64,000 nucleotides of DNA, from positions 744,001 through 808,000 of the forward strand of contig JARFIW010001458.1 in NCBI GenBank assembly GCA_036346225.1, in the 5' to 3' direction. Source of the stretch: Platerodrilus igneus (taxonomy: Eukaryota; Arthropoda; Insecta; Coleoptera; Lycidae). Of the stretch, positions 23,851 to 24,429 are shown in pieces. Position numbers and translations under genes: made by a program. Position 1 is the first letter of the stretch, and each line of letters opens with the position of its first letter. Below the pieces are notes generated by a model that searched no databases, had not been told where the DNA came from, and worked only from the letters and a program-made list of their open reading frames with translations.

Positions 23851-24276
23851 GAGATTTGGCGTTGTTGTTGAAAACAGCAAGATCTGTTTAGAGCACCAGA
23901 AGAGTATTCCCTTGCACATTGCGTAGCTCAAGATTTGGCAATGTCAAGGGAATAGATGTTGTTTTCAAGAAAAGTTTGGATGTGTGGATGAATTAGTACA
24001 ACAGCAGCCAACTGTAGGAAAATCTTTGGTTCTTCAAGATAAAAATCGTTATGTTTACTATCTGGTCACCAAAAATTCTTCATGGCAGAGACCTAGTTAT
24101 GGACATCTATGGGAGGCTTTGCTAAATCTTAAGGCGCAGATGATGGAAAATGGAGTAACGAGACTAGCGGTGCCCAAGCTGGGCTGTGGCCTGGATCGCT
24201 TGGATTGGAGGATAGTCCGAAATATGCTAGAAGTAGTTTTCCAGGGAACCAACGTCCAGGTTCTTGTTTGTTGCCG
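23851..24276 (+). pseudogene. Macro domain, OARD1/TARG1-like ADP-ribosyl hydrolase (frame-broken)
   Basis: Pieces of one macro domain can be read across three frames: DLFRAPEEYSLAHCVAQDL (23881 onward), GIDVVFKKS, FGCVDELVQQQ, then an open piece VLQDKNRYVYYLVTKNSSW to VPKLGCGLDRLDWRIV and QVLVC. The order and wording follow the animal enzyme OARD1 (TARG1/C6orf130), which removes ADP-ribose from glutamate or aspartate of modified proteins. The two catalytic residues reported for human TARG1, Lys84 and Asp125, correspond to the Lys at 24071-24073 and the Asp at 24194-24196, and both are present. It lies after the integrase in the place where errantiviruses have env. Three small frame changes separate the pieces. 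Expression, probably as a Pol extension, is inferred. Confidence 0.8.
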
Positions 24277-24309
24277 GTTGCCTACCAAGACCATGAAAAG
24301 AGTGTTGAC

Positions 24310-24429
24310 TGTTACTTCCAACGACGCGGTGGATGCACCAGAGGAGATAGCTGCCGATACCGTCACCAGTCATCGAATTGGCGTCAAGATGGATTTACAG
24401 TTACGAGACGTAACGGTTTTAAAGAGGGG
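24310..24429 (+). pseudogene. CCCH zinc finger after the macro domain
   Basis: In the frame one base off the macro domain, CYFQRRGGCTRGDSCRYRH has the spacing C-X7-C-X5-C-X3-H, with codons at 24310, 24334, 24352 and 24364. This is the CCCH zinc-finger pattern, usually RNA-binding. It is followed by a basic, Arg-rich stretch that runs into the polypurine tract. It is very likely the C-terminus of the same polyprotein. Confidence 0.65.

Follow-up and report, generated by a model that had tools for sequence, protein, structure and literature searches.

A predicted TARG1-type macro domain and CCCH zinc finger fused to the Pol polyprotein of insect Ty3/gypsy elements

The window analysed here, a 64,000-nucleotide (nt) stretch of the Platerodrilus igneus contig JARFIW010001458.1 (assembly GCA_036346225.1), contains a single long terminal repeat (LTR) element, a Ty3/gypsy retrotransposon located at 18373-24955; all positions are counted within the window along its forward strand. 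Downstream of the integrase the element carries a macro domain and a CCCH zinc finger, a module which we interpret, from sequence comparisons and a structure model, as a hydrolase of TARG1 type that was captured, is joined to Pol and is probably active. At this level of analysis the identity of the domain, its fusion to Pol, the grouping of the retrotransposon copies in one clade, the retention of the catalytic residues and, between distant elements, a stronger conservation than in the adjoining linker can be regarded as shown. That the element must undo ADP-ribosylation to multiply is a matter of hints, and the action against a host ADP-ribosylation defence suggested in the preliminary description is hypothetical.

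The preliminary description of the window had assigned the macro domain to the OARD1/TARG1 type, and had pointed to residues equivalent to Lys84 and Asp125 of human TARG1. Comparison of the frame piece 23927-24532 with solved structures yielded human TARG1 (4j5r and others) with E=7e-26, and the feared lack of an OARD1-like match did not materialize. The aligned Lys and Asp of the window piece correspond to K84 and D125 of TARG1 (counted along the structure chain, in the numbering of the entry), and the same residues are kept in 17 and 16, respectively, of the 18 retrotransposon rows of the alignment described below. In tblastn searches with the marsupial (P0114) and Drosophila (P0007) OARD1 proteins the macro site was matched, and no other place in the 64 kb gave an E-value below 1. 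Chance similarity to TARG1 was rejected on the strength of the structure match and of this unique tblastn match. The predicted structure of one relative superposes on TARG1 at 0.9 Å, and P0022, one of the retrotransposon proteins, is 41% identical to TARG1 across the modelled domain. The fold found was that of TARG1 rather than of another macro class. In the comparison with solved structures DarG-type antitoxin macrodomains came next after TARG1 (E 0.0016-0.0042). DarG is the second-best named fold family, but its profile match is weak, and the retrotransposon tails score far below the curated value of the DarG NCBIfam model NF048014 (31.7-44.9 bits in 4/4 proteins versus 250). The Pfam Macro model remained sub-threshold on the window piece (19.3 bits, cut-off 22). 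Among the BFVD structures near the model m1346406d3fa3 there were macro folds of Kadipiro virus VP8, thrips-associated flavi- and virga-like viruses and iridescent viruses, a recurrent feature in arthropod viruses.

The second part of the module has the form C-X7-C-X5-C-X3-H and is followed by a purine tract, as the preliminary description had it, and then by the LTR; it scores 21.4 bits with zf-CCCH, above the Pfam cut-off of 20.5. Its best match among solved structures was CPSF30 (6fuw, E=6.1e-7 for the whole chain), a value which sums several fingers of one chain, no single stretch passing alone; two-finger CPSF30 constructs gave E-values of 8e-4 to 1e-3. With a profile of 13 retrotransposon fingers TMA46 ranked first (8.9e-5) and CPSF30 second. 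No PARP appeared among the best-ranked solved relatives (CPSF30, TMA46 and other RNA-processing fingers), the finger being too short for assignment. On these matches the finger looks like the RNA-binding CCCH type. The preliminary description had also invoked antiviral PARPs combining CCCH fingers with macro domains; no single antiviral PARP is known to have both. Among the 20 retrotransposon-type proteins that reach past the macro domain 13 have the intact C-X7-C-X5-C-X3-H pattern.

The architecture is best seen in three relatives, P0015, P0016 and P0018 (1372-1377 amino acids), in which protease, reverse transcriptase (RT), RNase H, integrase, macro domain and CCCH finger follow each other in one stop-free frame. 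The long relatives P0015-P0018 were obtained by a search padded to reach long proteins. In these intact proteins Pol ends with the module at its C-terminus, in contrast to the separate gene in the position of env which the preliminary description had suggested. The search with the macro piece yielded a 200-residue tail with macro domain and finger (P0001). Aquatica leii and Ignelater luminosus contributed pieces, of which three from Aquatica (P0003, P0006 and P0014) include integrase sequence. Among the best 120 of 2014 matches of the profile search there were tails in Molorchus minor, Brassicogethes aeneus, Gonioctena quinquepunctata, Pyrocoelia pectoralis and Callosobruchus maculatus, and a piece in the leafhopper Macrosteles (P0096). 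Pieces of the module are thus present in at least seven named beetles. A one-off host insertion in the window copy was rejected, because the module is joined to Pol in relatives from several species.

We sorted 24 proteins as retrotransposon-type, including the Macrosteles P0096 on sequence alone, in which no pol match was found; 10 of the 24 have pol or integrase sequence in the same chain as the macro domain. The Pfam Macro model does not reach E 0.01 in any of P0015-P0018 (4/4), which may explain why annotation overlooked the module; of seven scanned retrotransposon-type tails only P0022 passed its cut-off (24.1 versus 22 bits). A chromodomain after the integrase was absent among the Pfam matches (E≤0.01) of P0015-P0018 (4/4), and in this respect the elements do not qualify as chromoviruses. 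P0017 (EPUL_004988) is an insect-type element of the lineage, present as a gene model in a 5.4 kb record of the powdery mildew Erysiphe pulchra; it is probably a contamination, with transfer as the alternative. Scans of viral contig DNA with the macro piece, the integrase piece and alignment A4 found no relatives, and the scan of genome contigs hit two places, each in a bacterial record, at 38 and 33% identity.

The origin of the module was studied on a tree of 54 macro domains (53 proteins and the window piece). We chose 57 out of 134 proteins and excluded P0025 and P0032 (misaligned) as well as P0105 and P0108 (not located by the script). The tree includes 17 of the 24 retrotransposon-type proteins; P0003, P0005, P0006, P0010, P0013, P0014 and P0017 were omitted by choice. 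The 18 retrotransposon rows form one clade (support 100/97), whose neighbours in the tree are host proteins of Aromia, Photinus and aphids (98/91), with Drosophila and vertebrate OARD1 outside this group. P0075 and P0078, labelled beforehand as near hosts, fall outside the group of retrotransposon and near-host proteins. Because the retrotransposon rows are one clade beside insect host proteins, a single capture from an insect OARD1 paralogue would be the simplest reading of the tree. The insect host macro proteins nearest to the clade are P0064, P0093, P0102 and P0126, and their family is a possible donor. By eye, the aphid and Aromia near-host proteins appear to combine a TARG1-type macro domain with a degenerate second one behind it.

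In RT, integrase and macro domain alike, the highest identity is that between P0015 and P0016 (94, 93 and 73%), the other two pairs among P0015, P0016 and P0018 having values of 82-83, 78-80 and 60%. Inheritance of the module together with pol would give such a pattern. Repeated swapping of the module between elements is not supported, given the one retrotransposon clade and the same closest pair in the three domains. Across the three proteins the macro domain is 61-73% and RT 82-94% identical; for the linker before the macro domain the value is 67% between P0015 and P0016, but drops to 29 and 40% for the two more distant pairs. We regard these figures and the kept catalytic residues as evidence for selection on the macro domain at the protein level.

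The element in the window has the following features:

18373..18894, forward strand: 5′ LTR (TGTTGC...GTTACA, 522 bp), 520/522 identical to the 3′ LTR, no gaps
19314..20204, forward strand: gag-like open reading frame (ORF) with a CCHC knuckle (zf-CCHC 25.9 bits, cut-off 20.8)
20280..20699, forward strand: aspartic protease (gag-asp_proteas E=8e-12)
21236..22180, forward strand: RT and start of RNase H (RVT_1 E=8.6e-38, RT_RNaseH_2 E=1.4e-24)
22138..23668, forward strand: end of RNase H, then integrase, broken up over several frames (Integrase_H2C2 E=4.7e-21; rve E=9e-6, 26.3 bits, cut-off 32.6; tblastn with intact relatives)
23881..24271, forward strand: predicted TARG1/OARD1-type macro domain, here split over frames (TARG1 match, tblastn)
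about 24295..24369, forward strand: CCCH zinc finger, C-X7-C-X5-C-X3-H (zf-CCCH match, tblastn)
24421..24433, forward strand: polypurine tract adjoining the 3′ LTR (read directly)
24434..24955, forward strand: 3′ LTR (comparison of the LTR pair)

The TG...CA ends of the LTRs, the order of protease, RT, RNase H and integrase, and the CCHC knuckle of Gag (Pfam) identify a Ty3/gypsy element. The Gag capsid models stayed below their cut-offs (Retrotrans_gag 22 bits, cut-off 24.1; Ty3_capsid 15.4, cut-off 29.1). The possible target site duplication is a 4-bp ATAT, but it lies inside an AT repeat. Since the LTRs are almost identical and free of gaps, the insertion looks young. Comparison of the LTR pair, the gag-protease part and the tail with the rest of the window revealed no second copy of these parts. 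Just upstream of the element, at 17000-17603, there are two arrays of 10-bp units around GTATCGATAC and GTATCGATGC; the examined region began at 17000, and the first array may start earlier.

The frames of the window copy were analysed unrepaired. Alignment with the intact relative P0018 (tblastn) revealed nine frame changes over 4 kb from the protease to the finger (frames 3,1,3,2,1,3,2,1,2,1), and yet in its RT protein the copy retains 84% identity to three relatives (tblastn). The N-terminal part of the macro domain (the SLAHC block, 23881-23949) is in a different frame from the body (23945-24271), and the frame of the finger differs from that of the macro body. By our rough estimate, nine frame changes exceed the ordinary decay expected since an insertion with near-identical LTRs. 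Either the copy was mobilised by others, or the excess reflects indel errors of the assembly.

The retrotransposon domain shares its fold and the K84 and D125 equivalents with TARG1/OARD1 (C6orf130), but, unlike it, forms part of a retrotransposon polyprotein, has a CCCH finger behind it and carries another residue in place of the G in the GDLF motif. Macro domains acquired by retroelements have a precedent in fish epsilon-like endogenous retroviruses with macro-domain ORFs (PMC4977317, citing Basta et al. 2009). Those are vertebrate elements with additional ORFs, whereas here the domain belongs to an insect Ty3/gypsy element, is in frame with Pol, is of TARG1 type and is accompanied by a finger; the comparison follows the citing description, and the TARG1 type is stated for the insect domain only. 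Orchid Ty3/gypsy elements with an AlkB m6A eraser (PMC9289625) likewise captured a host eraser enzyme, but are plant elements with a separate ORF and another chemistry, and their activity was shown, in contrast to the sequence evidence presented here. Bdelloid LTR elements with a DEDDy or GDSL ORF3 (PMC5408684) also gained an enzyme domain downstream of pol, but the enzymes are different and ORF3 is separate. No description of a Ty3/gypsy element with a macro domain was found among the papers listed, judged mostly by titles and beginnings of abstracts, with few subscription papers and no preprints or repeat databases. To the extent of these sources, the macro-CCCH tail in Ty3/gypsy Pol appears to be new, whereas macro ORFs in fish retroviruses and the capture of other enzymes by LTR elements were already known.

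TARG1-type enzymes strip ADP-ribose from proteins, DNA and RNA in other organisms. TARG1 is described to take ADP-ribose off DNA thymidine and to rescue a laboratory E. coli strain from growth arrest by DarT, while cells are not rescued by the K84A mutant (PMC8501950); uracil-linked ADP-ribose is described to be stripped by TARG1 and by Drosophila Targ1 and Targ3, but not by Targ2 (PMC13036486). We favour a reading in which an ancestor of the insect Ty3/gypsy lineage would have captured one TARG1-type macro domain from its insect host, and macro domain and finger would have been kept as the C-terminal tail of the Pol polyprotein. As an active ADP-ribosyl hydrolase, the tail would enter the particle together with Pol, and the finger would keep it on the RNA or complementary DNA (cDNA). 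The tail may remove ADP-ribose placed by host transferases on the RNA of the element (uracil), on single-stranded cDNA (thymidine) or on acidic residues of Gag and Pol, which would let reverse transcription or integration proceed. We give this reading as a whole, from ancestral capture as a Pol tail to an active eraser working on the element's own RNA, cDNA or proteins, slightly less than an even chance.

Several points weigh against it. The window copy is broken and cannot make the macro-CCCH module as it stands. D125 is lost in 2 of the 18 retrotransposon rows, one of which also lacks K84; none of the 14 readable rows retains the G of the GDLF motif, which the nearest host rows lack too; the first G of GCG is replaced in 6/18; and 7 of the 20 proteins reaching past the macro domain have no finger or a damaged one. 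The relatives came from searches of predicted proteins that started from the macro segment or its profile. A neutral simulation, in which a 170-residue stretch diverging to 56% identity stayed stop-free in 10/1000 runs (mean 4.4 stops), is weaker than it looks, since a predicted-protein database favours open frames; the residue pattern and the contrast with the linker therefore outweigh the absence of stops. We know of no host transferase that modifies insect retroelements. The more specific proposal, that the tail is a finger-guided nucleic-acid de-ADP-ribosylase of TARG1/DarG chemistry, carried because insects restrict reverse-transcribing elements via ADP-ribosylation of RNA or cDNA, and forms an animal counterpart of the bacterial DarTG anti-phage logic, is rather doubtful.

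The main rival explanation is a chromodomain-like role: standing after the C-terminal domain of the integrase, the tail would read ADP-ribosylated chromatin and steer integration, with hydrolysis being secondary. Chromodomains sit after the integrase in chromoviruses (PMC3605345), where they are thought to steer integration. The tail occupies the same place in the polyprotein, and its fold is of the ADP-ribose-binding type. A pure reader would, however, have no need for the two catalytic residues kept in most rows, and the finger suggests a nucleic acid rather than a chromatin protein as partner; this role is unlikely in our judgement. We consider it quite unlikely that the tail, freed by the protease, acts in trans by taking ADP-ribose off host silencing proteins (e.g. 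heterochromatin factors), so that the element is transcribed. SIRT6 does silence L1 by mono-ADP-ribosylation of KAP1 (PMC4695847), but that case is mammalian, the cleavage site and the localisation are only hypothetical here, and covalent fusion to Pol favours action in the particle.

The broken window copy, and relatives without active-site residues or finger, would also agree with a functionless host fragment carried by the element as a passenger, and a macro-query search among predicted proteins would hardly have sampled elements without the module or with a dead tail. Nevertheless, the catalytic residues and the C/C/C/H pattern are kept though the elements differ at about 40% of the macro positions, the macro domain is more conserved than the linker, and a neutral segment would carry about 4 stops, which makes a passenger very unlikely. 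We see the least chance for RNA handling mainly via the finger (packaging or contact with the 3′-end machinery), with the macro domain being structural: among solved structures the finger ranks closest to RNA-processing proteins (CPSF30 and TMA46), but the CPSF30 E-value is composed of several fingers none of which passes singly, Gag already has a CCHC knuckle, and the active site of the macro domain is kept.

Outside the LTR element, the ORFs at 11953-12813 and 46844-48902 resemble pieces of Penelope-type elements (with a GIY-YIG-like ending); Pfam gave no match for them, nor did PHROGs for the two tried (11953 and 48084). Broken pieces of a LINE-type (long interspersed nuclear element) reverse transcriptase lie on the reverse strand at 30179-34041 (RVT_1 19.7 bits, below the cut-off of 29.6), with a transposase-kind DUF4817 helix-turn-helix ORF between them on the forward strand (30751-31736; 24.1 bits, cut-off 22.6). 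The ORF at 38497-38916, which resembles a Maverick/adintovirus packaging ATPase, has a weak Zot-like match in PHROGs (E=0.025) and no Pfam match.

If the tail is active, the natural fusion of an eraser with an RNA-binding-type finger could serve as a tool, and ADP-ribosylation of RNA, cDNA or Gag-Pol as a restriction of animal retroelements, for which the evidence known to us is indirect, would become directly testable. An active tail would mean that a long-lived insect transposon lineage bears the cost of an ADP-ribose eraser within its own replication machine.
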